DNA from: a virus
Direction: 5' to 3' (one strand)
DNA length: 60,252 nt
IMG/VR virus record: IMGVR_UViG_3300028895_000917
Coordinates: 1-60,252 of that record
Positions 3,481 through 45,051 of the stretch are shown one piece after another; position 1 is the first letter of the stretch; each line of letters starts with the position of its first letter. The notes beneath the pieces are model-generated. The model made no database searches, was not told the DNA's origin, and saw only the letters and a program-made list of their open reading frames with translations. Position numbers and translations under genes: made by a program.

Positions 3481-3493
3481 CTATAGCCCTCCC
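3481..3493 (+). promoter_or_regulatory. Class A promoter-like motif (CTAT-N6-CCC)
   Basis: CTAT, six bases, CCC, preceded by GC. It lies 22 bases before the ATG of the 65-residue protein gene at 3515. This is one of about a dozen sites sharing the arrangement. Confidence 0.5.
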
Positions 3494-3514
3494 CTTTCAC
3501 AGGAGGACTCCCAC

Positions 3515-3712
3515 ATGGCAACTCGATCCACAACGTCCCAGTTTCAGCCCATCCCGCCCAACTATTCGACGGCGGCGGGCACGTACCGCAACATCGGCCG
3601 TTACCGGGCCATCAACTCGGCGACCCAGGGGCCGGCTCGTGCCAACATGAGCACCGCGCCCACCACGGCGAACAACACGCAGTATTTCTATGTGCCGCGT
3701 CTGAACGGTTAG
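3515..3712 (+). CDS. Small Ser/Thr/Asn-rich protein, probably strongly expressed
   Basis: 65 residues with no charged clusters, rich in Thr, Ser, Asn, Tyr and Pro, ending in FYVPRLNG. It is a single-gene unit: class A motif upstream, a strong AGGAGG ribosome site before the ATG, and a 12-bp perfect terminator hairpin 26 bases after the stop. That architecture suits an abundant protein such as a capsid decoration or small virion protein (inference). No family is recognised. Confidence 0.75.
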   Translation: MATRSTTSQFQPIPPNYSTAAGTYRNIGRYRAINSATQGPARANMSTAPTTANNTQYFYVPRLNG

Positions 3713-3738
3713 GGGTTCAAAACCCTCCGTTTTTGGAG

Positions 3739-3775
3739 AGTCCCTCGTGCGTATAGTAAGCACGAGGGACTTTTT
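3739..3775 (+). terminator. Rho-independent terminator
   Basis: A perfect 12-bp stem (arms 3739-3750 and 3760-3771) with a 9-base loop, closed by a run of T at 3771-3775. It ends the 65-residue gene unit. The loop contains TATAGT, a possible -10 box for the next gene. Confidence 0.9.
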
Positions 3776-3838
3776 GTGTCCGTAGCCTCCCCAAAAACCT
3801 CCTCATCCGGGTTTCTAAGGGACTTTCACTTCTCTACG

Positions 3839-4387
3839 ATGGCGAATGTCGCCCTCGACGAGCTCTTCGGTGAAGTGAAGCCTCCTTTGTGGATGAAATT
3901 CACGGTCGGGCATCATCTCGATCCGACGCACCATAACTTCATCTTCACGATCGACGCGACCTTTGACCCCTCCCTTGTCACGAAGGTCGAGGGTGTCGGT
4001 TTTCGGAACGTGCCTCGCAAACGGAAGCAATTTCAGTTTCGGTTCGACCTTGCACAGACCATTGTGCAGGAGATGCGGGACGAAGTTCCGAAGCTCTTCG
4101 TCAAGTGGGTGAAGAAGACGCTGTTCGAGAACGCCTACCGGATGTACGAGTTTGACCCGAGGATGGGCTGGAAATGGGAAGGCGACGCCTACCTTCCAGA
4201 GTGTCCTTTGTTCGATCCGCCTGAACATTTCTCAAGGACCGGGTTGCTCACCGAAGACGAGGAGGGCGAGCTCTTCTTTCCAACATGTCCTTTTTGTGGA
4301 GAGGAGCACACCTTTCTGGACCCTCCTGTTTGGGCCGGGGCCAACATGATGTGGGTTCACGAGGCGTGTTGGAGGAAGCCAACGTGA
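3839..4387 (+). CDS. Hypothetical protein with C-terminal CxxC/HxxC zinc-type motif
   Basis: 182 residues from ATG 3839; an in-frame GTG at 3776 lies in the terminator tail and is less likely. The bulk looks alpha/beta, with a basic segment near residues 60-75. The last about 35 residues hold CPFCGEEH followed by HEACW, giving CxxC and HxxC pairs that could bind one zinc. The gene overlaps the next by GTGA. No family is recognised. Confidence 0.7.
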   Translation: MANVALDELFGEVKPPLWMKFTVGHHLDPTHHNFIFTIDATFDPSLVTKVEGVGFRNVPRKRKQFQFRFDLAQTIVQEMRDEVPKLFVKWVKKTLFENAYRMYEFDPRMGWKWEGDAYLPECPLFDPPEHFSRTGLLTEDEEGELFFPTCPFCGEEHTFLDPPVWAGANMMWVHEACWRKPT

Positions 4388-4872
4388 AAAGCTCCATCCT
4401 CGAACATGGGAGGGTAGAAACCTGGAAGGCTGAGAACCCAAGGGAGTGGTGGGCATACCAACAACTCGACGAGGACGACAAGCTGCGAGACAGGGTTCTC
4501 GCGGCGGTTCTCAACGGTCGCGAAGACGACGAAGCGATCGACGACCTGATTCGTTTCACGGAAGCGCTGGAAGCTCACCGCCGAGTATCCAAGATGGGTA
4601 CGGTGCGTCTACCTCCTGCGGTTGGAGAGCGTCGCTCGTTCTCCATCCTCATCAACAGGATGACGCGGATGACTGGTAGTTCTGGCCTCTTTTTTCGTGT
4701 GGATTTCTCGTCGCCTGATGGGTGGGGCGGGTTCTTCGACACGACCAATCCAAGCGTGGTGGAGAAGATCGCGAAGGTGCGCAACCACGCCAAACCCTTG
4801 AACGTGGTGGCTGAAGTCTCGAGGCGTGTGTACGAGTTCTTCGTCGAACTAACCCACGTCAAGATCATGTGA
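4384..4872 (+). CDS. Hypothetical protein
   Basis: 162 residues starting at GTG 4384 in the preceding stop (GTGA). The N-terminal third is helical and very acidic (DEDDK, REDDEAIDD). The C-terminal part has beta-type segments such as GLFFRVDF and ends with a helix. No motif is recognised. It is coupled to the zinc-motif gene before it and is followed by a Lys-rich gene 7 bases on. Confidence 0.65.
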   Translation: MKSSILEHGRVETWKAENPREWWAYQQLDEDDKLRDRVLAAVLNGREDDEAIDDLIRFTEALEAHRRVSKMGTVRLPPAVGERRSFSILINRMTRMTGSSGLFFRVDFSSPDGWGGFFDTTNPSVVEKIAKVRNHAKPLNVVAEVSRRVYEFFVELTHVKIM

Positions 4873-4879
4873 GGAATCT

Positions 4880-5713
4880 ATGCCGAAGGCCAAACCCTAC
4901 TCGGGACCCGTAGAAGAAAGCGTCGCACGACAGCTCCTGAACAGCACTGGTCATGCCGTGGACATCAACGGAGAGTCCCTGCTACTTGGTGACGCCCTGC
5001 TGGCTGCTGCCAAACAACTCGCCGAGCTCGTATCGGAGGCAAACACGCAGCTCGACAACAACGACTTCGCCAAGATCGTCGCCGACCACCTGGCGGCGGA
5101 TCTGAACCGACGAGGGAAAGCCGAGATTGCCGTTCATGACAATGGCAGCGTGCAACTTCACATCAACTACCAGGGCAACCCGCGCAACCAGAAGCAGAAG
5201 CAGAAGCGCAAGCGCAACATCCCGTTGATGGAGGAGCTCAAGGCTCGAGCGGAGAAGCTCGGGGTTGAGATCCCAGAGGAGTTTGGCATCAAGCGCTCCA
5301 AGATCTTCGCGTGGCTCAACGAATACGAAGCGGGCGGAGTTCCCAAGGAAGCCGCTTCGAAGCCCAAGAAGGCAGCACGCAAGAGGCTCGAGGTGGCTGA
5401 AGACCCTCCTGAAACTGACCTTGGTCCGATGTCGGCAGGTCCTGATGAGACCAAGGTGTCGGCACCTCTCGATGAGGCAAAACTTCCGAAAAAACGTGGT
5501 TTCGTGAAAACCTCTGAAGCCCTCTCCGGCCCAGTGTTTGTTGGCGCCGATGCCGTGGGGGAGCCGAAACCGGCCCCAGAGGCAGAGTCGAACAGGGCCA
5601 AAAAACCCGCTGAAGACGCTCCAAAAGCCAAGGGACGTTCGATGCGGCAGCTCGTGGAAGAGAGCAAAGAGGTGGACATCTCCAACCTCTTGGCCTCCGA
5701 GCCGCCCAAATAG
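4880..5713 (+). CDS. Lys-rich protein with disordered tail
   Basis: 277 residues. A helical N-terminal half (about 1-100) is followed by a basic patch of alternating Gln and Lys (about 103-112), a short helical segment to about residue 150, then a long low-complexity tail of Lys, Ala, Pro and Glu to about 250, and a conserved-looking end (MRQLVEESKEVDISNLL). The basic stretch suggests nucleic-acid contact and the tail suggests disorder. No known family. The start has an acceptable ribosome site (gagg). Confidence 0.65.
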   Translation: MPKAKPYSGPVEESVARQLLNSTGHAVDINGESLLLGDALLAAAKQLAELVSEANTQLDNNDFAKIVADHLAADLNRRGKAEIAVHDNGSVQLHINYQGNPRNQKQKQKRKRNIPLMEELKARAEKLGVEIPEEFGIKRSKIFAWLNEYEAGGVPKEAASKPKKAARKRLEVAEDPPETDLGPMSAGPDETKVSAPLDEAKLPKKRGFVKTSEALSGPVFVGADAVGEPKPAPEAESNRAKKPAEDAPKAKGRSMRQLVEESKEVDISNLLASEPPK

Positions 5714-5724
5714 CGCGAATCCTT

Positions 5725-5737
5725 CTATGGGCGTCTC
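5725..5737 (+). promoter_or_regulatory. Class A promoter-like motif (CTAT-N6-CTC)
   Basis: CTAT, six bases, CTC. It lies 8 bases before ATG 5746 and is preceded by GAAT as at several other class A sites. Confidence 0.45.
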
Positions 5738-5745
5738 AGGGGTAG

Positions 5746-6198
5746 ATGTCCTTCAATCACTGCAAGGTCTGCGCACAGTGCAAGCAGCACCCCTGCACGT
5801 GCATCGACAATTTCTGGATCCTGCCCGAATCAGGGCGAAACTTGCTCAAGGGTTGCGAGTGCGATCCTGAAAACCCGATCCGCTTGCAGGACTGTTTTGT
5901 CCTGCACGCGATCCAGCACTCGACGAAGGCTCGCAAGGATTTTTGCGATCTCTACCCCTCCTTGTTCCCCTGTGAAAAGGAGCGGTTCGACATTCTATTC
6001 GGGGACAACCCGCTACTGACGAACCTCGTCGTCTGCTCGATGAACTACGAGGACACGTTCCAGCGGCGGATGAACAACATCCCCGTCTACACCAGTGGGC
6101 TCAACGGTGCGAAACGACTGCCGGTTGGGCACGTCTCGCAGGTCGTGAATCTGCCCCCGCACCTTGCTCCCAAACAACAACCCCCAGGATGTAAGTGA
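5746..6198 (+). CDS. Cys-rich hypothetical protein
   Basis: 150 residues. The N-terminus carries a dense cluster of cysteines (CKVCAQCKQHPCTC, then CECD) that could bind zinc or another metal; the rest is mixed, ending in a Pro/Gln-rich tail. The start follows a class A motif directly. The stop overlaps the next start (TGATG). I do not recognise a family. Confidence 0.65.
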   Translation: MSFNHCKVCAQCKQHPCTCIDNFWILPESGRNLLKGCECDPENPIRLQDCFVLHAIQHSTKARKDFCDLYPSLFPCEKERFDILFGDNPLLTNLVVCSMNYEDTFQRRMNNIPVYTSGLNGAKRLPVGHVSQVVNLPPHLAPKQQPPGCK

Positions 6199-6491: not shown

Positions 6492-6495
6492 ACAG

Positions 6496-6873: not shown

Positions 6874-6893
6874 CGTGAAAAGAGGATACGGGC

Positions 6894-7757: not shown

Positions 7758-8389
7758 ACGACCAGCGCAACCCCTTTGGCGGCAAGAACCCCCACGGCAT
7801 GTACGTGCCGATGACCGACGAGGAGATCGAAGTTCTCTACCGGCTCGCTGAGGCGGGTGAGTTCAAGATCCTCATCAAGGGTGAGGGGACCAACGGTCAG
7901 TCCGTCGAGTGGGGCTACGTCACCGGTTTCAAGGTTGGCAAGTACCACGGACCCGAGAACTACTTCGGTCAGTCGATCGTCACCATCGGCGACAAGCGCA
8001 TCACCTTCGTCTTCCGCATGAACTTCAATGCGCCCGCGCTGCCTCAGCCGAACTACTTCTTCGACATGGAAGTGTGGGCGATGGGGCACCTGTTCTTCTC
8101 GCAACGGTTCCCCACTGTAAACCCGATGGGCAAGCCCATTCAGGTGGTCGCCGGCATGTATCACGACTTCGCCCTGGACGTGGCCGTCGATCAGATCGAC
8201 CCCAAGATCGTCAAGGAGATCAAGCCGTCTGCTCTCGGCTTGACGACCCGACATGGGAACATGCACCTGGACACGCATCATCAGCGGCTGCTGGCCAAGA
8301 CCCAGGCTGGAGAGCGTGCAATTCGGGATTTGACGAACCATGAAGCCGTCAAGGCGACCAAGAAGATGAAGAAGGCCACGGGTCAATGA
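7754..8389 (+). CDS. Hypothetical protein
   Basis: 211 residues, coupled to the cold-shock gene by ATGA. The central part is rich in beta-type segments (VEWGYVTGFKVGKY, ITFVFRMNF) and the C-terminus is Lys-rich (KATKKMKKATGQ), suggesting nucleic-acid or acidic-surface contact. No family is recognised. Confidence 0.65.
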   Translation: MNDQRNPFGGKNPHGMYVPMTDEEIEVLYRLAEAGEFKILIKGEGTNGQSVEWGYVTGFKVGKYHGPENYFGQSIVTIGDKRITFVFRMNFNAPALPQPNYFFDMEVWAMGHLFFSQRFPTVNPMGKPIQVVAGMYHDFALDVAVDQIDPKIVKEIKPSALGLTTRHGNMHLDTHHQRLLAKTQAGERAIRDLTNHEAVKATKKMKKATGQ

Positions 8390-8394
8390 CTTGC

Positions 8395-8407
8395 CTATAG
8401 CCCTCTC
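8395..8407 (+). promoter_or_regulatory. Class A promoter-like motif (CTAT-N6-CTC)
   Basis: GCCTATAGCCCTC at 8393-8405 is identical to the motif at 3479-3491. It sits 9 bases before ATG 8417. Confidence 0.5.
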
Positions 8408-8416
8408 GTTTGTAGG

Positions 8417-8584
8417 ATGCGCACCCCCAAGGCCAAAAAGCCCAAGAGGATCGTGAGCGCAGGGCGTAAACCCTCCCGGATCGTGGTGCCTCCAATGAAC
8501 CCGAACCAGCCGTACAAGCTGCGCACGACAAAGCCGGCCCCGGGAGGAGTGGGATGTCTACGTTTGACTCTTCAGGGGCGCTGA
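8417..8584 (+). CDS. Small basic protein
   Basis: 55 residues, with a very basic N-terminus (KAKKPKR, RKPSR) and Pro-rich middle. It starts directly after a class A motif with AGG before the ATG, as other class A genes do. It overlaps the following gene by 31 bases in another frame, which lowers confidence. It could be a small DNA- or RNA-binding peptide. Confidence 0.5.
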   Translation: MRTPKAKKPKRIVSAGRKPSRIVVPPMNPNQPYKLRTTKPAPGGVGCLRLTLQGR

Positions 8585-10003: not shown

Positions 10004-10053
10004 GATGCTTGTGGGTGATTAGGCGCTTCAGGTCCTGCGCTTCGGTTTTCGGT

Positions 10054-10066
10054 TGATAGCGGGCCC
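10054..10066 (+). promoter_or_regulatory. Class A-like motif (TGAT-N6-CCC)
   Basis: Same spacing as class A but TGAT in place of CTAT. It is 19 bases before GTG 10086 and merges into a hairpin that reaches the start codon. Confidence 0.4.
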
Positions 10067-10086
10067 TCTACCAGAGAGGCAGCCCG
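10060..10086 (+). promoter_or_regulatory. Leader hairpin reaching the start codon
   Basis: CGGGCCCTCT (10060-10069) can pair with AGAGG (10075-10079) and GCCCG (10082-10086), with a 2-base bulge. The stem takes in the first base of the GTG start, so it may control translation. A 22/23-identical element lies before the 15700 gene. Confidence 0.5.
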
Positions 10087-10796
10087 TGGCAACATTTACG
10101 AACTTCCAGGCCCTTCTTCAATTGGGCGGTGGCGGCGGCGGCGGAACGCTGGCGACCATTCTTGCGTCTGGTAACGCCACGGGTGGCTCGGACATCCTTT
10201 TCTCGGCAAGTACCGGCGACGGCATCGACACCGAAAACAACGCGGCGGGTGCGGGCTTCAGTCTCGACATCGAAGGAAGCGATGCGGGTGGTGGAGTCTT
10301 TGCCGGCGGCGACATCAACCTGACCCCAGGGTCCGGCTCCGGAGGCGGCCCCGATGGCGTGGTCAACATTGCCGGCGATCTGATCGTTACCGGAACCGTT
10401 TCGCTGTCGAACCTCATCGTGGGCGCCGGAACTCCCGAGGGTTCTGTCGCGGCTACGGTTTCGACAATTTTCCAACGCACCGACGGCGGTGCGGGCAACT
10501 CGGTCTACTTCAAACAGTCGGGTGCGGCTGCCACGGGCTGGGTCCCGGCAGGTCCTCCGGTGTTTGAAACCTTCGTCGCGGTGGGGGTCCCCACTTTTGT
10601 GACGAGTCGTGCGGTCTTCGACGACACCCTGGCGCTTGGGGTCGAGAACATCGCCGTCTTTTGGAATGGCGTCCTCCAACGCGAAGGCGGTCTCGACGAC
10701 TACACGGTGGTCTTCGGTGGCGCAAGCGCGACGGTGACGCTCACCTCCACGCCCCCTCCGGGTGACTTCATCACAATTCGATACCTCCCGGCCTAG
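10086..10796 (+). CDS. Glycine-rich fibre-like virion protein
   Basis: 236 residues from GTG 10086 (a TTG at 10053 is in frame but upstream of the hairpin). A short N-terminus is followed by a Gly-rich beta-repeat region (about 15-115), a module SVYFKQSGAAATGWVPAG (about 150) and a C-terminal beta domain containing AVFWNGVLQREGGLDDY and a FITIRY end. The same modules occur in the 10849 and 15700 proteins and are typical of phage fibre or appendage proteins. No signal peptide. Likely a structural protein at the virion surface (inference). Confidence 0.65.
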   Translation: MATFTNFQALLQLGGGGGGGTLATILASGNATGGSDILFSASTGDGIDTENNAAGAGFSLDIEGSDAGGGVFAGGDINLTPGSGSGGGPDGVVNIAGDLIVTGTVSLSNLIVGAGTPEGSVAATVSTIFQRTDGGAGNSVYFKQSGAAATGWVPAGPPVFETFVAVGVPTFVTSRAVFDDTLALGVENIAVFWNGVLQREGGLDDYTVVFGGASATVTLTSTPPPGDFITIRYLPA

Positions 10797-15614: not shown

Positions 15615-15626
15615 TTCCGCGAATGG

Positions 15627-15665
15627 GCCTATGGGCTGCCCTCTACAGAGAGGCAGCCCATAGGC
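15627..15665 (+). promoter_or_regulatory. Perfect inverted repeat with class A motif upstream of the giant fibre gene
   Basis: Arms GCCTATGGGCTGCC (15627-15640) and its exact complement (15652-15665) flank 11 bases. The left arm contains the class A site CTAT-N6-CCC at 15629-15641. There is no T-tract, so it is not a normal terminator. The core GCCCTCTAC...AGAGAGGCAGCCC recurs before the 10086 gene. Confidence 0.6.
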
Positions 15666-15699
15666 GGCTGTCTCATTCGCAGACGGAGCCTTTGAAGCT

Positions 15700-18600
15700 A
15701 TGGCCAACCCTCCCGCCAATCGACGCCCAGGTGTAGACGCCGACATTTTCCAAGGACAGTGGGTCCGGGGATTCGACGTTCCGGCGGGCAACGACGACCC
15801 TGCTGCCGACCCCTGCGATCTGATTGTCTCGAACGGCAAAAGTCAGATCGACCAGACGGTCTCGAACCTCATCTTCGCCAGCCGCAAAGACGACATCGGC
15901 CAACCGATCTTCGTCATGGCTCAGGGCGAGACGGCGACCGCTCCCATCGGCACCATCAACTTCCACATCGGTCGTGAGGCGGACCCCAACGGTTTGATCT
16001 CCGGTGTGGGCGGCGGCGCTCTTTACGCGAGCTACGGAACTCCGGGCTTGTGGCAGCTTCAGGCGGACAACACGACCTGGCAGAAGATCTCGGACGACCT
16101 CGGCGGGGAGGACCTCCAACAGACGCTTGCTCTGGGCAACTTCTCGGGCGGCTTCAACATCGTGATGACCAGCGGCGACAGCATCGTCGGCGCTGACAAT
16201 GCCTTGGGGAGCGACGGAGCTCCGGTTCAGTTGCAAGGTGGTGCGGCAACCGGTGCGGCGGGCAACGGTGGTCAGATCATCGCTCGAGGTGGCGACTCTG
16301 CCAACGGTGTCACTGGCAACGTCGAGGTCAGTACGCTCGCGACCACGAGTGGTGCGCAGTCGGGCACTGGTCGCGTTAACATCTTCACGGGCGATTCTCG
16401 TTTCGGAGGTAACTCGGGCGCCATCCGTATCGAGACCGGTAGTGCGGGCGACCCGGCCATCGCAGGCACTGCGGGCACTCTCCAACTCATCGGTGGCCGC
16501 AACTTCAACACTGGTGGGTTCGGCGGCGGCGGTCGCATGGACATGATCGCGGGTCAGGCGACCCAAGACGGCCAGGGCGGCTATGTCCGGATCTTCTCGG
16601 GTAACGCGACGACCACGACTCAGACCATCCCGCTTCCGTTCTTCGTCCAGGGACGTGCTGGTGACGTTCAGATCGGGGCTGGCACTTCGTCGGGCACGAA
16701 CGAGGGTGGTTTCATTCAGCTCACGGCTGGCGTCGGTGGTAGCGGTGGCGGCCCTGGCGGCAACATCCTTTTGAACGTCGGTCCTGGTGGTGGCGGTGCG
16801 GATGATGGCCAGGTCATCTCCAACGGTGTCCTGTCGTCCGACAACATCAAGCGTGGCACCCAAGATCCCAATAGCATCAACCTGGCCGGCAACGAAGGTG
16901 ACGTGTACCAGCGTACGGCTGGAGGTCTTGGCCAGGTTTGGGTCAATACCAATGGCTCGCCTACGGGGTGGCAGCAGCTCGCCTTTGCTGGGGACTTCGT
17001 CGAAGCATTCCAGCAGATGGAGATGGGCTACGTGTCTCCGTCGATGCAGGAGTTCGGCGGTCCCGATACGCAGAAGTACAGCGACATTGGTTTGTACAAG
17101 GGCCTGCGTACCGTCATCAACGGTATCGCTACGGTGACGCAAGGCCGGACGGGTACGGGTCCCGCTCTGGCGATGTTGGTCAACGAGACGATGAACAACG
17201 AGCAAGCCTCGTTGGACATGCAGACTTCTGGTTTGAGCGGTCAGGGTGTCGTTCTACGAAACCGGTTCTTTGCCACGTTCGCTTTGCAAACCGCTTCGAC
17301 GGATGAAGACTCGACACGTTTCTTTGTCGGGCTCTCGGACAACGACATCACGACCCAGCTTTCCTCGGATCTGCCTGGTGGTCGCTATTTGGGCTTCATG
17401 CGAAGCGCCATCAACGGCAACTGGGTGGTCGTTCACCGTGGCGGCGGTGGTGCGAACTTTGTCAACACCGGCGTCTCAAGAAGTACGACGGATGGCGGCG
17501 CTTCCGATGATGTCTACTATTTCGTGATCGATGCGACCGACGGGCTTCTGCCTGTGGTCAGGTTTTTCATCCTCGATCCCGATCTTCAGGTCATCGCGAA
17601 CATCACAGTTCCGAGCAACCTTCCCGGGCCCGGAGAACAGATGTGGCCCGCATTTGGCGTTCGTACCGTCAATGCCGCAGCGGGTTTCGTCAGCGCTCTT
17701 CGCGTCACCAATGCGTCGATCACAACGAAGGCCGCAACCGTTGCTCAAGGCGGAGGTACCGGAACGGGCGGTCTTTCCCTGGCCCAGGTGTTGGTCAACG
17801 GCAACGAGACGGGCCTCAACCCCATCCTCATCAACCAAGGCAGTAGCATCCTCGGTGTCACCGACGACAACGCGGGTGACGGTGCCTTCGTGTCCATCTT
17901 CGGTGGTGCGACGACGCTTGCCACCAACGATACCGGCGGCATCAACGTTGGCTCCGGTAATGCTTTCGGTGGTGGTGCTGAGAACCCTGGCTCGAGCACG
18001 GGTATCGCGGGCTTCGGTTCAGGTTTCCAACTCGGCCTGACTTCGCAAGGCAACACCGGTGTCGTGAACGTCATCAGTGGTGATCACCTCGGCACGGACG
18101 GTGACACGGGAGACATCAACCTTCGAAGCGGTGGGTTCTTCAACGGTGCCGCTGGTACACGCGAGCAGGGTGATGTGAACATCGCTCCCGGTTCGTTCAT
18201 CCCGAACCCGGCGACGGTCACAGGTGACTTGGTCCTCAAGGGCGGTAGCTCGAATCTTTCGGGTATCGTCGGTGGTGACGTGATCATCATGTCGGGCGAG
18301 AACAACTCGCCGTCCGGCAACACGGGTGACATCGTCATCGAGACCTTCGATGCGCTGACGGCTGGGGACTCCGGTGGTCTGGACCTGAGCACGGGTAGTG
18401 CGGGTGCGGTCAGTGGAGACTCGGGTAACCTGACCATCGCAACCGGTGCGGCCCCTGGGGGGAACTCAGGCTTCATCGCTCTTGTGACGGACAACGCCGG
18501 TAACGGCGCTGCGGGTCCAATGCTGCTGAGCATCGGCGGCACGACGCTCGGAGATGGCTCTGACATCTTCGTCAATGCCGGCTCCACCACCGATGCGGCG

Positions 18601-23993: not shown

Positions 23994-23996
23994 GAC

Positions 23997-24713: not shown

Positions 24714-24943
24714 TCGAAAATCTACCTCCTCACTGTACACGGACCAATCGAAAAAAATACATCAAGCTCATGATCTGAGGCGGATCAAGTACGCGAAAAA
24801 AGGTCATGCGCCTTCGATAACGGCTTTCTATAGGGGGAATCGCGCCGTTGGCGCTGATTCCGCAACTGATCCTTGGGTCCAGGAGACCTCCAAAACGAGC
24901 TCTCCCGAATCCGCCTATGGGCGCCCCTGGACGAGAGGTCCGG
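24714..24943. promoter_or_regulatory. Divergent intergenic region
   Basis: 230 bases between the minus-strand lipoproteins and the next plus-strand unit. It contains a CTATAG core at 24828-24833 that reads on the minus strand as CTAT-AGAAAG-CCG, a weak class A candidate for the lipoproteins. An inverted repeat GGAATC-GCGCC/GGCGC-T-GATTCC lies at 24836-24861. No gene is supported here. Confidence 0.4.
24915..24927 (+). promoter_or_regulatory. Class A promoter-like motif (CTAT-N6-CCC)
   Basis: GCCTATGGGCGCCCC, 16 bases before ATG 24944, and preceded by GAATCC as at 5717. Confidence 0.5.
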
Positions 24944-25051: not shown

Positions 25052-25075
25052 CCGCGACACGCGGCTCTAATCCCT

Positions 25076-25088
25076 CTATCGGCTTCCC
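25076..25088 (+). promoter_or_regulatory. Class A promoter-like motif (CTAT-N6-CCC)
   Basis: CTATCGGCTTCCC, preceded by TAATCC, 67 bases before ATG 25156. The leader is longer than at other class A sites. Confidence 0.45.
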
Positions 25089-25155
25089 TTCATAGGAACG
25101 CGCGTCTCCATGCTCCAAACCCCACTCATCGTGCCGCGAATTTCGGGAGGACGGC

Positions 25156-26130
25156 ATGTCTAGTACTCCTTGGCGTCGCGGGAACGTGAAACTCGAGGTT
25201 GACGCCTCGGTTGAGCACGTTGAATCAGCTTCTGTACCGGGCGGTGCGCCGGCAGCGGGCACTGGCAAGTTCTGGGTTCGCAACGACAGCGACAACACCC
25301 CGATGTTCACCTCAGACGGTGGCATCGACTACGTCCTCAATGGCGGCTCTCAGTGGCAAGAAGAAACTGCGACCACGACCGATGCGACGGCAAACGTCAC
25401 GATCGCCACCCCAGTGTCGGCGCTCGGGGTTGCCGAGCAGACGTTCGTAGACGTGATCATCCTGGCTGAGTCGGGCGCGGCCAACACCTACTTCCATCGG
25501 CAGCTCATCACCTACTACGAAAGCGGGGGCGTTACCCAGTGGACGGTGGAGATGAACGGCCTCGAGCAGCGTCGAGGTTTCCCAACCACGGTCACCGCTG
25601 CACTCGCCATCAACGGTTCGGCCATCGAAGTGCAGGCTACAGGTCAGGCTGCGACCACGATCAACTGGACCGTTCAGTACCGGACCAAAGAGACCGTCCA
25701 AGATGGTCTTGCCACGGGTAGTGGTGCGCCCTCCCCCACCGCCAGCACGCTCGTTTTCACATCCCTCGTCACGTCGGGTCCGACGACGGCGGCTGTGAAC
25801 GACTTGGTCAAGTACGACCCGTCCGGAGGTCCTTTCACGATCAATGCTCCTGCGAGTCCTTCGAAGGACGACCGTTTCGCGATCAAGAACGCTACGGCAG
25901 ACCTGACGAACATCACCCTCAGCGGCTACTCGCTCTACAAGACTGAAGCGTCCTTGGTGACTGGTCTTGAGCTCCACGGCGACCCGGTGAAGAAAATCTG
26001 GCGAACTCGAGTGCCGGTACCTTTTTCGGCTCTTGAGCTCGTAGATCGCGACCCCAACCCCACGACGTTGCCTGGGCTCACCGAGATGATCCGAGCCCGC
26101 GCTGCTGAGTATCCGAGCGTGACCTTGTAG
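25156..26130 (+). CDS. Virion-type beta-rich protein
   Basis: 324 residues. The N-terminal module GKFWVRNDSDNTPMFTSDGG is the same kind as the GxxWxK...W modules of the 10849 and 15700 fibres. The middle is beta-rich (QTFVDVIILAES, FHRQLITYYESGG). A C-terminal part resembles a small barrel (DDRFAIKNATADLTNITLSGY) and ends with a helix. It is likely a structural or baseplate/fibre component. Ribosome site ggagg before the ATG. Confidence 0.65.
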   Translation: MSSTPWRRGNVKLEVDASVEHVESASVPGGAPAAGTGKFWVRNDSDNTPMFTSDGGIDYVLNGGSQWQEETATTTDATANVTIATPVSALGVAEQTFVDVIILAESGAANTYFHRQLITYYESGGVTQWTVEMNGLEQRRGFPTTVTAALAINGSAIEVQATGQAATTINWTVQYRTKETVQDGLATGSGAPSPTASTLVFTSLVTSGPTTAAVNDLVKYDPSGGPFTINAPASPSKDDRFAIKNATADLTNITLSGYSLYKTEASLVTGLELHGDPVKKIWRTRVPVPFSALELVDRDPNPTTLPGLTEMIRARAAEYPSVTL

Positions 26131-29195: not shown

Positions 29196-29325
29196 GGGAT
29201 CGTCTCTCCTGGGGTTCCCTATAGCCCAGCTACCGAATCAGTCGAACTCGGTGATCCCGTTGAGCCAGTCGTCGATTGCCGCAACGATGCGCTCCTGGAT
29301 CTGAAGCTGCGTCGCCAACGACCAG
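29165..29325. repeat. 161-bp direct repeat, copy 1
   Basis: Matches 30605-30765 at a constant offset of 1440 with four mismatches (29192, 29231, 29254 and 29283). On the minus strand it holds the last about 28 codons of the SGNH-like gene, the class A promoter motif, the ribosome site and the first codons of the next spike gene. Confidence 0.95.
29212..29224 (-). promoter_or_regulatory. Class A promoter-like motif on the minus strand
   Basis: Reads CTAT-AGGGAA-CCC on the minus strand, 16 bases before the ATG of the 27390 gene. Confidence 0.5.
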
Positions 29326-30635
29326 TCGAGCACGAGCTCCGAGTCGGGGGGGCCACCGGGGTTGAAGTCGGTGTCGAACGGCACGTTCCCGACTCCCGTG
29401 GCATGACCCCCGTAGATGAGGCTCCCGTCAGGGCTGATGAAGTTGCTCAGCGGGACGGGCAGACCGACAGGGCTGGTGAAGGTGGTGTCGCCACGAGGGT
29501 CGATGCCCCACATCATGTAGCCCCAGGTCCAGGCTGCCACGATCGAGGAGAGCACATTGAAGTGAGTGTTGAAGTTGAAGGGGGCAACGGTCCCTTGGGT
29601 GCGATTCAACCAGCCCCAGTTGCGTCCACCGGGCTGCAAGCTCCCCGAGTGCGTCAGTGTCGCGTAAGCAGGGACGGGCGTATCGACCCCAGAGCCCACA
29701 GTTCCGAAGGCCCCGTACTGGAGCCTCGAGCCCACGTAGTGTTCCGGGACGACCAAGATTCCTTCTGCTTCGAGCTGGCGAGCTCCGAGGACCTGCCGCA
29801 ACAGGAAGTCTTGGACCTGGGTGAGGTCCACGTCAAGGTTCGTCCTGTATCCTTCGTGGGTCATCCGCACGATGCAGGTCGGTGCAGGGCTGATCCGACT
29901 TCCGATCTCCGTGATGATGTCTCGGACGGGCTGGAGGTAGACGGTGTCTGCTCCGCTGCCGGGGACCGTCTCGTCGGCGGCGGTAGGGTCCTCTTGGTTG
30001 AACCCCGACGTCAGGACGACGAAGTCGTAGGTCCCAGGAGGCACGGAGGCGAGCGCGTCGATGGCGTCCAGGGTGCCTGTAGCGCCGGACTCATAGCGCT
30101 GGTCGAAGGCTGGGTACAGTGCCATCCCGGCAAGGGTCATGGCTGGGTAGTAGCCATCGTTGCCGTTGGCGATGGTGCCAGCCAAGATTGGAGGCGGCCC
30201 CAACGTGACGGCTGCTCCCGGAAGGGTCGCGTCCACGTAGTGAGCCATGCTCGGGACGACCGCGAACTGCTGGGTGTAAGAGTTGCCGACGAAGGAGACC
30301 GTAGAGGTCCCAGTGAACAGAGGAGGATCCGGTTCTGGCTCCGGGTCAGGAGGGGGAGCTTCTTCGACAGGAGTCGGATCGGGACGGTAGAGGTGCTTGG
30401 CCACTGGCGCGAGAGCCCCGTGAGCCCGAAGGGTGGTCATCCCCTTCTGGCCGCCGAGGAGTGCGCTCGAGATCCCAGCACCTTGCAGAGCCGAAGGTTG
30501 CCGGCGCCGGTTGTCCAGATCGACTTCGTTGGCATCCACGACAGGAGAAGGGACCGACCGTCGAGGGCGTCGTGTCGCGGCCACGAAAGCTGCGATCGGT
30601 CGAGTGCGCCCTGGGGGAAGGAGAGGGTTGGCCAT
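29238..30635 (-). CDS. Spike-like protein with SGNH-hydrolase-like domain
   Basis: 465 residues. N-terminal anchor (MANPLLPPGR, RQPSALQGAGISSALLGG) is shared with the 27390 protein, then a Pro/Glu/Asp linker (about 88-105) joins the catalytic-type domain. Block I of SGNH/GDSL enzymes is visible as FVGNSYT (S119), and a block III-like SGFNQED contains N213. A C-terminal His (H329 in THSGS) is a candidate, but the usual Asp three residues before it is not obvious. Such domains on phage spikes remove acetyl groups from surface glycans; activity here is inferred. The last 28 codons are duplicated upstream. Confidence 0.65.
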   Translation of the reverse strand: MANPLLPPGRTRPIAAFVAATRRPRRSVPSPVVDANEVDLDNRRRQPSALQGAGISSALLGGQKGMTTLRAHGALAPVAKHLYRPDPTPVEEAPPPDPEPEPDPPLFTGTSTVSFVGNSYTQQFAVVPSMAHYVDATLPGAAVTLGPPPILAGTIANGNDGYYPAMTLAGMALYPAFDQRYESGATGTLDAIDALASVPPGTYDFVVLTSGFNQEDPTAADETVPGSGADTVYLQPVRDIITEIGSRISPAPTCIVRMTHEGYRTNLDVDLTQVQDFLLRQVLGARQLEAEGILVVPEHYVGSRLQYGAFGTVGSGVDTPVPAYATLTHSGSLQPGGRNWGWLNRTQGTVAPFNFNTHFNVLSSIVAAWTWGYMMWGIDPRGDTTFTSPVGLPVPLSNFISPDGSLIYGGHATGVGNVPFDTDFNPGGPPDSELVLDWSLATQLQIQERIVAAIDDWLNGITEFD

Positions 30636-30651
30636 GGGATCGTCTCTCCTG

Positions 30652-30664
30652 GGGTTCCCTATAG
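30652..30664 (-). promoter_or_regulatory. Class A promoter-like motif on the minus strand
   Basis: CTAT-AGGGAA-CCC, identical to 29212-29224, 16 bases before the ATG of the SGNH-like gene. Confidence 0.5.
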
Positions 30665-30677
30665 CCCAGCCACCGAA

Positions 30678-30765
30678 TCAGTCGAACTCGGTGGTCCCGT
30701 TGAGCCAGTCGTCGATTGCCGCGACGATGCGCTCCTGGATCTGAAGCTGCGTCGCCAACGACCAG
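30678..30765 (-). pseudogene. 3' remnant of a second SGNH-like spike gene
   Basis: Encodes WSLATQLQIQERIVAAIDDW and on to a TGA. It is the same as the C-terminus of the 29238 protein except for one residue (Thr for Ile near the end). The rest of the gene is missing, because the reading ends at the junction at 30765/30766. This shows that a further spike gene once lay upstream. Confidence 0.8.
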
Positions 30766-35219: not shown

Positions 35220-35234
35220 CGCCCGGTTATGGGC

Positions 35235-35247
35235 CTATCACGGTCCC
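35235..35247 (+). promoter_or_regulatory. Class A promoter-like motif (CTAT-N6-CCC)
   Basis: CTATCACGGTCCC followed by TTTTGTAG, 8 bases before ATG 35256. Confidence 0.5.
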
Positions 35248-35255
35248 TTTTGTAG

Positions 35256-35876
35256 ATGGCTGAGCCGACCGTCAAAACCGCTGTGGTGTTCCGGCCCAAG
35301 CGGGACTGGAAACCCAAAAAGCGGGACCGCAACATCACGCGCCGCAAGAAGCGCAAGAAGTGGTGGCGTCGGAACAAGCACAAGGTGAAGCTCCGGCGCA
35401 AGAAGCGTCAGCGGATGCTCAAACACAACTCCCTGTTCAAACAGTGGAGGAAGAAGCGACAGAAGGAAAAGCAGAGGCGCCGGATGCGTTTCGGTTCCGA
35501 GGAAGCTCCCACTCTGCCGCAGAGTTGGTTTGTTTTCCGCGACGATGTCGAGGAGGGAAAGCCCATCGACATCGATATGGGGTACATCGTGGACTACGAC
35601 CCCGACACCGAGGATCTGCTGATCTACGACGTGGATACGGACGAGGAGAAGGTCGTCAGTCTTGATGACTTCCTGACCCACAGCGAGTTCCTCGAGGAGG
35701 CTGACCTCCACAACTTCGAGCTCATTTTGGATCAGTACTACGGTGGTCCCGAGGATGACCTTGAGATCGTCGATGACGAAGATGAAGCTCCTCGCATGGA
35801 GTTCGAAGTAGACATGGATGAGTTTGCTCGGAAGGTCGCCCACACCTGGCTGCTTCGGTTGGCCGAGGAGGACTAG
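35256..35876 (+). CDS. Two-part protein: very basic N-terminus, very acidic C-terminus
   Basis: 206 residues. About 12-80 is dominated by Arg and Lys (for example RRKKRKKWWRRNKHK). About 85-206 is dominated by Asp and Glu (DDDLEIVDDEDEAPRMEFE-like runs). The basic part should bind nucleic acid and the acidic part could shield it or recruit basic partners. The gene is preceded by a class A motif, so it may be a virion or DNA-packaging-related protein. No family is recognised. Confidence 0.7.
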   Translation: MAEPTVKTAVVFRPKRDWKPKKRDRNITRRKKRKKWWRRNKHKVKLRRKKRQRMLKHNSLFKQWRKKRQKEKQRRRMRFGSEEAPTLPQSWFVFRDDVEEGKPIDIDMGYIVDYDPDTEDLLIYDVDTDEEKVVSLDDFLTHSEFLEEADLHNFELILDQYYGGPEDDLEIVDDEDEAPRMEFEVDMDEFARKVAHTWLLRLAEED

Positions 35877-36704: not shown

Positions 36705-36976
36705 TGAACAATCCCGATCCGAAAAAAGTCGCCAAACAGTTTCTCGCTCAACGCGGGGAATCCTGGTCTGAGTTGTTCTTCGCCCCTTACCCTCGAGGAC
36801 TCACTCGCTACCTTCCAACCGAGCTTGACGTTGTATGGTGGCGTGCGGGTGAAATGTTCGAAGGTGACATCCACAAGTTCATTCCCGAAGGCAGCGACTT
36901 GGCCTTCGAAAAAGAGTCGGGCTACCAGGTGGGGCATAATCAGCGTGTCCGCGCAGATAAGGTGTACCTGCGATGA
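36701..36976 (+). CDS. Hypothetical protein
   Basis: 91 residues from ATG 36701 (ATGATG at the previous stop). Mixed alpha/beta with several Trp and Tyr (ESWSELFFAPYPRGL, VVWWRAGEMF). Its stop overlaps the start of the flavoprotein gene (ATGA), so it may act with it. No family is recognised. Confidence 0.6.
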   Translation: MMNNPDPKKVAKQFLAQRGESWSELFFAPYPRGLTRYLPTELDVVWWRAGEMFEGDIHKFIPEGSDLAFEKESGYQVGHNQRVRADKVYLR

Positions 36977-39003
36977 GTGACGCCAAGCACAGACTCAAGG
37001 TTCTCAACAAGCACTGGAGCGACTTCGTTTCTCTCGAAGAGGCGAACGCGCAGCACATGGAGAACGTGGCGCGCCTTCAGGAGATGTTCGAGAAGCGCAA
37101 AAACAAGAAGCGCCCTATCCATGTCGTCGGGATTGCGGGCTCGAACCGTAGCAAGGGCAACTGCGCCCACGAGACGAGCAGCTCCTGGCTGATGATCCGC
37201 AAGGCGATGGAGTACCTGTCGCACCAAGACAACGTCACCACGCACGCCTTCAACCTCCCCGGCATGGAGATCGAGCACTGCAACGGGTGCTACTCGAGCA
37301 CGAGCTCCCTGTGTCGCTTCCCCTGCATCGCTGCTGGAGAGAGGGTGCAAGGCCCCTCCATGTCCCGCATCGAGGATGTCAAAGCTGGGGATCAAATCTC
37401 GACGGGGATCGTGACGAAGGCGTGGCAGTCGGGAATCAAGCCTACTTTCTGGGTAACCCTATCTGACGGACGACGCCTTCGTCTAACTGATAACCACCCG
37501 GTCAAAGTCATCACGGGAAAAATCAGGAACAAAGAGACGAGCTGGAAGTGGGTGAGGACTACTGACTGGGTTCAGGTCAAAGACCTCGAAATTGGCGCCA
37601 AAATTCCGTTTGTTCTCGGTGGGGGTTTTGGAGAAGGCATCGACCAAGCGCCTCACGATTTTCTGCTCGCTGGAGCAGTTTTCGGCGACGGAACGTTCTA
37701 CGGAAAAAAGAAGGAAGAGGCGTGTATCTACTACGACGAGCGTAGTGATGGGCTTGCTGCTGCGTTGAGGAAAGAAGTCCCGTACGAAGCCGTAGACCGG
37801 AAACACCTCGTGAACGCAGAAATTTGCGAACGCCACGGTTGGCCTTCTTCGGCCTGCGATCACATGCGCAAGTTGGCGTACCCTGCTCGCATCGGGCGCC
37901 TTCTGAGACATCGTATCGGACTAAACAAGGAAGGCCCTGCATCGTCTCGACGACTCCCAGACTCTGTGATGGCGGGCTCCCGCGAACAGGTGGTCGCTTT
38001 CCTGCGTGGGTGGTTTTCGGCAGATGGTTCCGTGAACCACAAAACCGGCAACGGTGAAAAATACGCGCGGGTATCTCTCAGTAGCTCCAGTGTACAGGCG
38101 CTGCGAGATGCTCAGATGCTTCTGTCCAAACTGGGCATCCGATCCTGTGTGTACGATCTCTCTCACCATGTCGTGGAGGAAGAGAACCGTACATACACTC
38201 GATCCAGCGAACTTCAGATCACGGACGCCGAACACATCCAGACGTTTGCGGAGGTTGTGGGGTTTGCTGAGGAAACCAAAACGGCAAAACTGGATGGCCT
38301 TCCTGAGCGTCGGAGTTGTTCGCGTCCATACGGGGAAGTTGTTTCCATCGAGGCTACTGGTGTCAGTGAACCCGTGTACGATCTTACGGTCGAGGACACT
38401 CACGAATTCGTGGCTGGAGGGGTCCCAGTTCACAACTGCGACTGCTGGCCCTACGACGACATGCAGGACATCTACGCTCAGCTCACGCTGGCTGATGTCA
38501 TCCTGTTCTCGACCCCGGTGAACCAGTTCTTGCCGGGCTCGAGGCTCAAGATGGTGCTTGACCGTCTCATCTCGATGGACGGCGGCCGGTTCGCTCCGAT
38601 GTACAACGTGGACGGCCAGACCTGGAAGAACTCGGAGTCCAAGAACGCTGAGCAACGTGTCGGGATGCGTGGGGACTTCAGGTACGTCCAGAGGCTCGCA
38701 GGGAAGGTCTGTGCGGTCTTCTCGACGTGCAAGGACTACGGCTCGTACAAGGTCGCCTACGACATCCTGGCTGGCATGAACGACTACGGGTGCTTCATCC
38801 CCCCGAACTCCGTGGTCAGCTTCCACAGCCCACGTGTGCAGCGAGACACGGCCTACGACAAGCATGACTTCCTGAAGGACCTCCAGACGGGCGGTTGGAT
38901 CGGTGACGCGATCGAGAAAACCTGCGAGAGGTGCCTTGAAACGGCAAAACTCGTTCGTGACAACGAATCGCTCTGGATGGATGAGATGACAGGGCGCGCC
39001 TAG
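36973..39003 (+). CDS. NADPH-dependent FMN reductase-like flavoprotein interrupted by an intein
   Basis: 676 residues before splicing, about 305 after. Extein: a helical N-terminus (1-45), then HVVGIAGSNRSKGNC typical of the FMN-phosphate loop, Cys-rich CNGCYSSTSSLC, then (after the intein) CDCWPYDDMQDIYAQLTLAD and ILFSTPVNQFLPG, the family's ADVILFSTPV strand. This family reduces FMN or other acceptors with NAD(P)H; the two Cys clusters suggest an iron-sulfur flavoprotein type (inference). The intein occupies residues 118-488. The gene is coupled to 36701 by ATGA. Confidence 0.75.
   Translation: MSDAKHRLKVLNKHWSDFVSLEEANAQHMENVARLQEMFEKRKNKKRPIHVVGIAGSNRSKGNCAHETSSSWLMIRKAMEYLSHQDNVTTHAFNLPGMEIEHCNGCYSSTSSLCRFPCIAAGERVQGPSMSRIEDVKAGDQISTGIVTKAWQSGIKPTFWVTLSDGRRLRLTDNHPVKVITGKIRNKETSWKWVRTTDWVQVKDLEIGAKIPFVLGGGFGEGIDQAPHDFLLAGAVFGDGTFYGKKKEEACIYYDERSDGLAAALRKEVPYEAVDRKHLVNAEICERHGWPSSACDHMRKLAYPARIGRLLRHRIGLNKEGPASSRRLPDSVMAGSREQVVAFLRGWFSADGSVNHKTGNGEKYARVSLSSSSVQALRDAQMLLSKLGIRSCVYDLSHHVVEEENRTYTRSSELQITDAEHIQTFAEVVGFAEETKTAKLDGLPERRSCSRPYGEVVSIEATGVSEPVYDLTVEDTHEFVAGGVPVHNCDCWPYDDMQDIYAQLTLADVILFSTPVNQFLPGSRLKMVLDRLISMDGGRFAPMYNVDGQTWKNSESKNAEQRVGMRGDFRYVQRLAGKVCAVFSTCKDYGSYKVAYDILAGMNDYGCFIPPNSVVSFHSPRVQRDTAYDKHDFLKDLQTGGWIGDAIEKTCERCLETAKLVRDNESLWMDEMTGRA
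37324..38436 (+). mobile_element. LAGLIDADG intein in the flavoprotein gene
   Basis: 371 residues from Cys (after FP) to the VHN end, with Cys as the next extein residue. Block A-like CIAAGERV, block B-like LTDNHPVKV and the block F/G-like end VYDLTVEDTHEFV...VPVHN are present. Two LAGLIDADG motifs, LLAGAVFGDGTF and FLRGWFSADGSV, give a homing endonuclease. It is inserted in the Cys-rich stretch before DDM. A 60-base sample at 37681 has 30 G+C against 39 in the extein at 38581, consistent with a separate origin. Confidence 0.9.
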
Positions 39004-39081: not shown

Positions 39082-39558
39082 TCAAGGTAGATCGGCCGGC
39101 TCAGCGTTTTCGTAGAGCCACAGGAGCTCGAAGGCTTCCTCGCTCAGTTCTTCATCGAGCTCTTGTCCGATACGGAGGACAAGAGACTGGCCGACATGGC
39201 CTTGGCAGTAGCAGACGAAGCCCACGTCTCCGTCGCCGTACTCGAAGTGATCGAAGCCAGCATGGCCCGCGTGCTGCCAGATGAAAGACAAGAGGTCCGT
39301 CTCCTTCTGGCAATCGATCACGATGGGTCGCAGTTCTCGTTCATACAGATTCCACCGAACTGATAGAGCACGCTTGCGTTCGATGCCGTCAGAGCTCACC
39401 CACGTGTTGACGCAGTAGTAGCCCCACTGTCCAGCGAGAGGCACCTTCTCGGGATAGACATCCCATCCCTTCTGCCGAAGTGCTTCGGCAGCCATCTCGG
39501 CCTCTTCCCGCGAGCGTTTCAATTCGGCGGTATGGTCGTCGTAGTCGTGCTCGGCCAT
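39082..39558 (-). CDS. Hypothetical protein
   Basis: 158 residues on the minus strand. Acidic, with a helical N-terminus, a beta-rich centre (GQWGYYCVNTWVSSDGIERK) and a Glu/Leu-rich C-terminus (EELSEEAFELLWLYENAE). A CYC pair lies in VGFVCYCQGH. Upstream on the minus strand is TTAT-AGCCGC-GCA (39568-39580), a weak class A-like site. No family is recognised. Confidence 0.65.
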   Translation of the reverse strand: MAEHDYDDHTAELKRSREEAEMAAEALRQKGWDVYPEKVPLAGQWGYYCVNTWVSSDGIERKRALSVRWNLYERELRPIVIDCQKETDLLSFIWQHAGHAGFDHFEYGDGDVGFVCYCQGHVGQSLVLRIGQELDEELSEEAFELLWLYENAEPADLP

Positions 39559-39604
39559 CCCACTAATTGCGCGGCTATAAGCGCGCTGGCGCCGCTAACG
39601 AAGG

Positions 39605-40852: not shown

Positions 40853-40862
40853 CAGGTAGACG

Positions 40863-42571: not shown

Positions 42572-42583
42572 AAGCGAACAACG

Positions 42584-43963: not shown

Positions 43964-44298
43964 TGTTGCAAGACGAAGCTGCCCTCAACTTCATCAAGGC
44001 GGCCACTGAACAGGAAGACGCCGTGTTCAAACGGTGCCTCAAGATGTTCCGGGCGGTGCCTCCCCCGCACAAGGATGACCGGATCGTGGACTCCGGGATC
44101 ACCATGATGCAGGTAGCCTTCACGATGCTGCTTCAGCAGGAGAAGAAGATGAAGCAAGCCGGCGGATGGCCAGAATCCCTCCGAGAGCACGAATCGGCGC
44201 GTACACGCAAGATGCGGAGGGCGCTCCGAACCCACACGGAAGACTATTTCGACGCCTGGTACACGCGAGCGAAACGGCTGAGTCCCGAGTTGGCGTAG
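43963..44298 (+). CDS. Helical hypothetical protein
   Basis: 111 residues from ATG 43963 (TGATG with the previous stop; ggagg upstream). Almost all helix, with Met-rich and basic stretches (QVAFTMLLQQEKKMKQAGG, RTRKMRRALRTH). No family is recognised. Confidence 0.6.
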   Translation: MLQDEAALNFIKAATEQEDAVFKRCLKMFRAVPPPHKDDRIVDSGITMMQVAFTMLLQQEKKMKQAGGWPESLREHESARTRKMRRALRTHTEDYFDAWYTRAKRLSPELA

Positions 44299-44320
44299 AA
44301 CAGTCGGAGGCTCACGTCAC

Positions 44321-44620
44321 GTGAAGTACTACATCATCCCTGCCAAGGATGTCCAAGCCGGCGACGTGATTTTCACGAACAACGGCGACGGCAAGGACAT
44401 CCAGTTCTGTGGCCGAGTCATCGGCCAGACCGTCCCGAGTTCTCACCCCATGATCACCGAGTGGCGTGTCGAGGTCATGGTTGGGGACGAGTCCGAGGCG
44501 CCCGGGACCCATACGACCATCGGGTTCCGGCACAGCACGCTGGTCGGTGTTGCTCGAGAGGATGCTTTCGTCGAGACCGACATCGCAGCCATCCTGGCTG
44601 ATCTCGACAAAGAGGGCTAA
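44321..44620 (+). CDS. Small beta-rich protein
   Basis: 99 residues from GTG 44321 (cggagg upstream). A beta barrel-like pattern: MKYYIIPAKDVQAGDVIFT, then DIQFCGRVIGQ, then EWRVEVMVGDESEAPGTHTT, ending with an acidic helix. It resembles a small SH3- or hint-like barrel, but no family is recognised. Confidence 0.6.
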   Translation: MKYYIIPAKDVQAGDVIFTNNGDGKDIQFCGRVIGQTVPSSHPMITEWRVEVMVGDESEAPGTHTTIGFRHSTLVGVAREDAFVETDIAAILADLDKEG

Positions 44621-44633
44621 GTGAAGCCGTTTT

Positions 44634-45011
44634 CTATTTCGCAGTAAGTGGTGTTTTTTCGCTGGTGTCATTCTGAGCTTTGAGGGTCTCGGTGAGATCA
44701 CCGATCTGACCGTCGATACCCTCAATCTGCTGCTCGATTTTCTCGATCTTCTCCGCGTTGTCGCGTGCGGTGAGTAGGTCCTTCACCGTTCCTTGAAGTC
44801 GTTCGATGCGGCGTTCCTGATTCTCGACTCGAGCTGTGAGGGATCGATGAAGCGAGTACAGGAAAATGTCGCCGATGAGCAGAATCCCGACACAGACGGC
44901 GAACATCATCCGGAACCAGGACTTCCAACGCTCCCCGTTCGGGCCCGAAAAGGGCCCTGTGGCGTTTTGGTCCTGCGTCGCTTCTTCCTGGGGCGCCTCG
45001 AGCTCGGACAT
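44634..45011 (-). CDS. Single-span membrane protein with coiled coil
   Basis: 125 residues on the minus strand. A polar N-terminus (1-33), a membrane helix (about 34-55) and a coiled coil (about 60-110; RVENQERRIERLQGTVKDLL). The topology fits an inner-membrane spanin or an anchor protein, but the distance from the lysis genes argues for caution. Its promoter-like motif (45020-45032) faces away from that of the 45059 gene. Confidence 0.6.
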   Translation of the reverse strand: MSELEAPQEEATQDQNATGPFSGPNGERWKSWFRMMFAVCVGILLIGDIFLYSLHRSLTARVENQERRIERLQGTVKDLLTARDNAEKIEKIEQQIEGIDGQIGDLTETLKAQNDTSEKTPLTAK

Positions 45012-45019
45012 GTTGCCAA

Positions 45020-45032
45020 GGGTTTAGCATAG
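45020..45032 (-). promoter_or_regulatory. Class A promoter-like motif on the minus strand
   Basis: Reads CTAT-GCTAAA-CCC, 8 bases before the ATG of the 44634 gene. It is paired with an opposite class A site at 45038, making a compact divergent promoter. Confidence 0.5.
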
Positions 45033-45037
45033 TCTGG

Positions 45038-45051
45038 CTATCGAACGTCCC
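45038..45051 (+). promoter_or_regulatory. Class A promoter-like motif (CTAT-N7-CCC)
   Basis: CTATCGAACGTCCC followed by TCTACAG, 7 bases before ATG 45059. The spacing is one base longer than elsewhere. Confidence 0.5.

Follow-up and report, generated by a model that had tools for sequence, protein, structure and literature searches.

What is the function of the short motif that recurs ahead of genes on both strands of IMG/VR record IMGVR_UViG_3300028895_000917, a linear virus record of 60 kb? The whole record (60,252 nucleotides, nt) was analyzed and is referred to here as the window. The motif, designated class A, had been described in an original prediction as CTAT, six bases and then CCC or CTC, and was taken there for a late promoter with a -10 element and no -35 box. 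From the comparisons described below, class A is probably a phage-specific late promoter of a clade of huge phages, which would be used by the host RNA polymerase together with phage sigma-type proteins.

Enrichment and full form of the class A motif

Exact matches to CTATNNNNNNCYC (CTAT-N6-CYC) were counted in the window and in 100 dinucleotide shuffles, a control that the original prediction had itself proposed. Twelve were found versus 4.74 ± 2.26, none of the shuffles reached 12, and every strong site of the prediction was present at its position. All 12 matches lie outside called genes, and the coding share of the window is 89%. Note that a simple gene caller was used, and that small genes at 8417-8584, 24944-25051 and 59318-59989 were added by hand. 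Two exact matches, at 15698 (overlapping a start codon) and 27058, were set aside as chance.

No relatives were recovered by megablast of the window against phage records, and several other protein searches of viral contigs for relatives returned nothing. A protein search with the window’s largest protein gave IMGVR_UViG_3300022719_000283 (618,736 bp), designated G1, for which coordinates are given on the reverse complement (G1rc). The window corresponds end to end to 600-618.7 kb plus 1-43 kb of G1, with mostly 32-90% identity between matched proteins, and from this synteny it is a fragment of a huge phage. Genes of G1 include those for terminase, portal, prohead protease and T4-type baseplate wedge proteins.

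Expectation-maximisation (EM) on 444 G1 upstream regions yielded three motif classes (I, B and A), of which class A was recovered by both seeded and unseeded runs. Its G1 consensus is tCGGTARTnnGCCTATRG-n4-CCCY, where a CGGTA box stands 7 nt upstream of CTAT, so that the original prediction had seen half of it; the extended form is tCGGTARTnnGCCTATRG-n4-CCCY-n-GGtTAG. Across 163 sites, numbered from the C of CTAT, the preferred bases are C at -11, G at -10 and -9, T at -8, A at -7, R at -6, T at -5, G at -2 and C at -1. CTAT itself is 93-99% conserved per base and is directly followed by a purine in 70% of sites (+4 R), with G at +5, CCCY at +10 to +13, G at +15/+16 and a purine at +19 in 90%. 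The AAT or AT noted earlier a few bases before CTAT is real, and it belongs to a second box that is also conserved, CGGTA(A/G)T, of which it is the visible part. The pyrimidines followed by ACAG or GTAG are likewise real, and in the 163 sites they keep a fixed register to CTAT whether the start codon is near or far. Upstream of -16 no position is conserved in these sites, so there is no -35 box, as had been proposed; what did not survive is the single element, since the motif has two boxes, CGGTA plus CTAT. These lie 7 nt apart and not 16-18 nt apart as do sigma-70 -35 and -10 boxes.

A matrix was then trained on non-syntenic G1 genes only (log-likelihood 209 versus 62-84 for eight shuffled sets) and applied to the window, where it gave 13 matches of at least 12 bits versus 0.75 expected. 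These comprise 11 sites or candidates of the original prediction, a new site at 59297, and one minus-strand match in coding sequence at 43023, which was dismissed as chance (Table 1). The TGAT site at 10054 and the seven-base site at 45038 are genuine variants whose G1 orthologues carry the motif; the latter scores lower because its register is shifted. Of the two weaker candidates, the one near 24828 proved good, whereas that near 39577 is weak in the window and clearer in its orthologue. The minus-strand sites at 29212 and 30652 are not independent because both lie within a 161-nt direct repeat (29165-29325 and 30605-30765, 98% identical) in which, for two neighboring genes, a class A site is followed by the leader and the N-terminal codons. 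This repeat would be a promoter duplication. In G1, 59 of the 60 sites scoring at least 14 bits are intergenic, and the distance from CTAT to the start codon peaks at 20-22 and at 28-32 nt.

Conservation across huge phages

For nine pairs of orthologous sites in the window and G1, CTAT is 97% identical and the preceding 12 nt are 78% identical, versus 49% and 41% for the flanks. G1 also keeps the TGAT variant of site 10054 and has an overlapping divergent pair corresponding to 45032/45038. A 497-kb phage (G2) was reached via a sigma-like G1 protein that is 52% identical there, and the same search gave two contigs. Random seeds lead to class A in G2 too, where the counterparts of classes I and B are different sequences from those of G1. 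The density of class A in the window, G1 and G2 is 10.5-18.3 per 100 kb (1.9-2.6 simulated), and the motif is also found in about 20 further huge-phage contigs with GC contents of 44-66%. Twenty loci that carry the sigma-region-4 gene described below contain 17.7 core matches per 100 kb (2.4 simulated), and the control phages CcrColossus, Tunturi_5 and LR745206 have no excess of the class A core.

Chance or intergenic base composition was considered as an explanation, given that CTAT alone is enriched between genes (37/80) and that the original prediction had looked mainly there. It is refuted by the held-out matrix, orthologue conservation, de novo recovery in two relatives and about 20 contigs, and the control phages, and we regard it as scarcely credible.

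The class A sites of G1 head a terminase/portal unit (site 344999), a prohead protease unit (362085), baseplate wedge genes (504002) and fibre genes. The earlier statement that virion-type genes are mainly served is thus borne out for head, baseplate and fibre units, but not for all genes, as one G1 class A gene encodes a tRNA nucleotidyltransferase. Due to this gene, and to the many class A genes without a known family, the label “late” is one that we infer. The motif stands before genes on the same strand, it is conserved in the clade, and it precedes head, packaging, baseplate and fibre units. This strand-specific, intergenic, conserved placement in register with start codons supports a phage-specific late promoter, for which the single-element form first proposed was incomplete.

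Classes I and B, and the operator alternative

Class I (cTTGACn3TATCACaTCGGcCCCATAGTa) has 39 G1 sites, mostly at 140-213 kb of the reverse complement, and heads small, mostly unknown genes in one 75-kb region. It is of early type, with TTGAC and CATAGT and a sigma-70-like spacer that holds a conserved block, TATCACATCGG; at most sites the start codon falls at the expected transcription start. Class B (GGnGTAnAA) has about 68 sites in the EM result and precedes about 68-107 G1 genes, mainly at 50-400 kb of the reverse complement, including those for DNA polymerase, ligase, helicase, dUTPase and RuvC. Its T is usually 11-13 nt upstream of the start codon, a leaderless-like arrangement. Because a -10-like box lies so near the start codon, leaderless mRNAs are expected from the spacing of both classes.

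The conserved block in the class I spacer suggests that operator-like elements may exist in this phage, and class A might itself be an operator or another protein-binding site (for a regulator, packaging or partition) beside promoters of another type. In the divergent pair at 45026-45044, CGGTA and CTATCG do make up a near-palindrome. However, class A sites are not accompanied by another promoter motif at a fixed spacing (nothing is conserved upstream of -16), and, unlike most operators, they have a defined orientation with respect to the gene. This explanation is therefore quite improbable.

Sigma-type proteins and the search for a polymerase

A 184-amino-acid (aa) G1 protein matches Sigma70_r4 at 50 bits (cut-off 24) and contains a second related unit, so that it consists of two tandem sigma-region-4 units. 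In its predicted structure (pLDDT, the predicted local distance difference test, 83), 52-56 residues align with sigma region 4 of SigF at template modeling (TM) scores of 0.81-0.86 of target, with weak E-values for the whole protein, and its sigma-4 profile matches SigF, WhiG-type and FliA structures. Relatives were found at 30 huge-phage loci and in one unannotated 485-kb phage record (LR745208). Among bacterial genome contigs there was a single match to the family, in a metagenome bin.

In nearly all relatives, a class A site follows immediately after this gene. When the stretch after it was examined in 23 non-redundant loci, gtCGGT..T...cCTAT was found unprompted, with a log-likelihood of 191 versus 55-73 for random gene ends. 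In 21 of the 23 loci CGGT..T...CCTAT is clear, either as such or slightly varied, and the other two show a variant recognizable by eye. A second G1 candidate, a 246-aa sigma-2/sigma-4-like protein, has a profile match to the SigH structure 3mzy (E 9e-5).

No multisubunit RNA polymerase was detected with PF04997 and PF00623, for which controls were positive, although very divergent subunits could escape such a search. No credible catalytic Asp triad of an RNA polymerase was present in six frames, and PF00940 (T7-type polymerase) was not found, though no control genome gave a match either. Because no phage RNA polymerase was detected, the host core enzyme is the likely engine. For jumbo phages that lack their own RNA polymerase, reviews predict phage-specific promoters that are read with the help of phage sigma factors (PMC13282480, PMC7824862).

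Alternatively, class A could be the promoter of a divergent phage-encoded RNA polymerase of the phiKZ/AR9 kind, in which case transcription would start at or just after CTAT (TATR, where R is +1) and CGGTA would be an upstream contact. The known late promoters of phiKZ (TATG) and AR9 (AACA-N6-T(A/G)) do start at the last base of the motif (PMC5312081), the frequent purine after CTAT would fit, and leader folding is strongest from CTAT onward. The negative searches for Rpb1 domains, a T7-type enzyme (with its silent control) and an Asp triad speak against such an enzyme, as do the sigma-type proteins, which are absent from phages with such polymerases (PMC7824862). Moreover, genes with the short start distance are without a Shine-Dalgarno sequence although a start at CTAT would leave room for one. 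We consider this alternative unlikely.

Two further readings were rejected. In a T7-like reading, CTATAGGG of two minus-strand sites resembles the end of a T7 promoter; most sites differ, the two are copies from a single duplication, and the search for a T7-type polymerase (PF00940, with its silent control) was negative. For a sigma-54 reading the spacing is wrong.

Start site and leaders

Three places for the transcription start were weighed: CTAT, +13 to +16, and +19. Where the start codon is 28-32 nt from CTAT, the Shine-Dalgarno sequence mostly begins at +14 or later (14-22 nt after CTAT, with a peak at +18 to +20). Where it is 20-22 nt away, only 4 of 28 genes have one, versus 45% of all genes (P = 7e-4). 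Because of this placement in the long class, the depletion in the short class and the preference for G at +15/+16, a start 13-16 nt after the C of CTAT was adopted with modest confidence. Short-class leaders would then be 4-9 nt long without a Shine-Dalgarno sequence, and in the long class the latter would often fall inside the leader. Transcription from the start codon itself, which classes I and B suggest for their own genes, was not adopted for class A, given the position of the long-class Shine-Dalgarno sequences.

Several sites are followed by clear inverted repeats. One example, a 12-bp repeat (CTATGGGCTGCC / GGCAGCCCATAG), begins at the motif at 15629-15663, and related hairpins occur at 10054 and at several sites in G1 and the clade. 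These repeats just after CTAT, together with a weak overall folding bias, would suit a leader RNA or translation element (a 5' hairpin or ribosome-loading signal) in place of a promoter. However, folding is strong in a minority of leaders only, and the conserved bases form a linear two-box sequence. The distance to the start codon varies from 16 to 40 nt while the box spacing is fixed, and divergent gene pairs have one site per direction. A leader element is thus very improbable, a shade more so than an operator. The idea of a hairpin promoter was dropped for the same reason, that only a minority of sites fold.

Proposed recognition of class A

In the favored reading, a late promoter, class A would be bound by host core RNA polymerase carrying phage sigma-type proteins, with the 246-aa protein and the 184-aa tandem protein as candidate factors. 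CTAT would serve as a -10-like melting element (T-12, A-11, T-10), and CGGTA, at about -24 to -20, would be a second contact replacing the -35 box. A more specific version can be put forward tentatively, and we think it doubtful: a sigma-like factor of new build that lacks region 2 and has region 4 as a tandem pair of helix-turn-helix units. Each unit might read one of the two boxes (CGGTA and CCTAT), which lie one helical turn apart, and the factor would replace the usual -35/-10 reading of the host polymerase for late genes of a widespread huge-phage clade.

Several observations weigh against recognition by sigma-type proteins or against the assignments above. The 246-aa protein matches Sigma70_r2 only below the Pfam cut-off, its structure model is poor (pLDDT 53) and unusable, and the 184-aa protein is without region 2. 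With CTAT as the -10 element there is no T-7, although one would be expected if the element were of the sigma-70 type. Leader folding is slightly highest from CTAT (mean z of about -0.4 to -0.8 at +0 to +4 in four data sets), which would point to a start there, but the peak may be a product of the pyrimidine-then-purine layout. Note also that relatives were found via the sigma-4 protein, so that the co-occurrence of motif and sigma-4 gene arises partly by selection.

Class A sites and other features of the window

Table 1. Positions of class A sites in the window and of the tandem sigma-region-4 gene in relatives (C, position of the C of CTAT; ORF, open reading frame).
Feature	Coordinates	Strand	Details
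Class A, C 3481	3469..3494	+	34 nt before gene 3515-3712; 19.1 bits (held-out matrix); G1 orthologous site
Class A, C 5725	5713..5738	+	21 nt before gene 5746-6198; 14.4 bits; orthologue G1rc 603241
Class A, C 8395	8383..8408	+	22 nt before small ORF 8417-8584; 14.3 bits; orthologue G1rc 605969
Class A, TGAT variant, 10054	10042..10067	+	32 nt before virion-type gene 10086-10796; 18.3 bits; TGAT kept in orthologue G1rc 607089
Class A, C 15629	15617..15642	+	before 2473-aa fibre-like gene 15700-23121; 19.2 bits; orthologue G1rc 614556
Class A, C 24915	24903..24928	+	29 nt before small ORF 24944-25051; 19.6 bits
Class A, C 25076	25064..25089	+	before gene 25156-26130; 15.4 bits
Class A, C 35235	35223..35248	+	21 nt before gene 35256-35876, without Shine-Dalgarno; 21.7 bits, best in window; orthologue G1rc 17912
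Class A, seven-base spacing, 45038	45026..45051	+	21 nt before virion structural gene 45059-46303 (phrog_10356); overlaps minus site 45032; orthologous divergent pair G1rc 26893/26887
Class A, CTTT variant, 59297 (absent from original prediction)	59285..59310	+	21 nt before ORF 59318-59989; 13.4 bits; core CGGTAAAATGGCTTT kept in G1
Class A, C 45032	45019..45044	-	21 nt before gene 44634-45011; 14.3 bits (matrix from all G1 genes); orthologue G1rc 26887 minus
Class A, C 29224	29211..29236	-	29 nt before gene 27390-29195; 19.1 bits; in 161-nt repeat
Class A, C 30664	30651..30676	-	duplicate of 29224 site; 29 nt before gene 29238-30635; 17.0 bits
Class A, C 24833	24820..24845	-	upstream of lipoprotein-like gene 23997-24713; 16.3 bits (held-out matrix), 17.6 bits (all-G1 matrix)
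Weak class A, register 39580	39567..39592	-	before gene 39082-39558; 7.8 bits; orthologous G1 site 21006 minus, 14.6 bits
Tandem sigma-4 gene	L017:17525-18076 (= G1 340661-341215); L063:12285-12836; loci L070-L099		

Other features were recorded in the course of this work. Inteins are present in an FMN-reductase-like protein (36973-39003) and in an RtcB ligase (54972-57464) of the window; G1 seems to lack or vary both, because its matches split there without the intein part. Gene 1321-2688 fuses a DFP-type flavoprotein domain to a class II aldolase domain. At 23307-24713 (minus strand) of the window and at 7-9.5 kb and 574.7 kb of G1 lie genes for lipoprotein-like proteins that are rich in Cys and contain long Gly-Asp repeats. 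These are reminiscent of proteins of Nannocystis-type myxobacteria, a possible hint at the host. A homologue of the virion protein at 45059-46303 (L040, G002:402611-403357) contains one in-frame TGA, which is present in two records of seemingly the same phage; TGA is the commonest stop codon of that phage.

Comparison with known promoters

Late transcription in T4 is coupled to replication and uses the gp55 sigma factor, the gp33 co-activator and the sliding clamp, on promoters with the -10 element TATAAATA. As in T4-type late promoters, class A precedes presumed late genes and has no recognizable -35 box; no phage RNA polymerase was detected, and sigma-type proteins are encoded, one of them reduced to sigma-4-like helix-turn-helix units. 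Unlike in T4, the class A sequence is CGGTA-N6-CCTAT and not TATAAATA, and the sigma-4-like protein of the clade is a tandem duplication with Pfam Sigma70_r4 matches. Promoters of the sigma-28/FliA type have the form CTAAAG-N15-GCCGATAA. The CGGTA or CGATA box of class A resembles their -10 core CGATAA, but class A has no TAAA box upstream and has an extra, nearly invariant CTAT box. With the late promoters of phiKZ and AR9, class A shares the character of a short late motif of jumbo phages, that of AR9 likewise consisting of two small boxes six bases apart; it differs in boxes and spacing, and no such multisubunit polymerase was found here.

Late promoters read by phage sigma-type factors are of a known kind, that of T4. 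In full-text literature searches, no such promoter was found described for uncultured huge phages. As far as these searches reached, the class A sequence, its two-box layout, its spread in a huge-phage clade and its constant association with a tandem sigma-4 gene have not been described. The outcome would be a late-promoter sequence for an entire clade, with a candidate factor encoded beside one conserved copy of it. For a 618-kb phage, putative promoters of early, middle and late type have in addition been mapped computationally. Together these results make the late switch of these phages testable and should aid the annotation of their small late genes.

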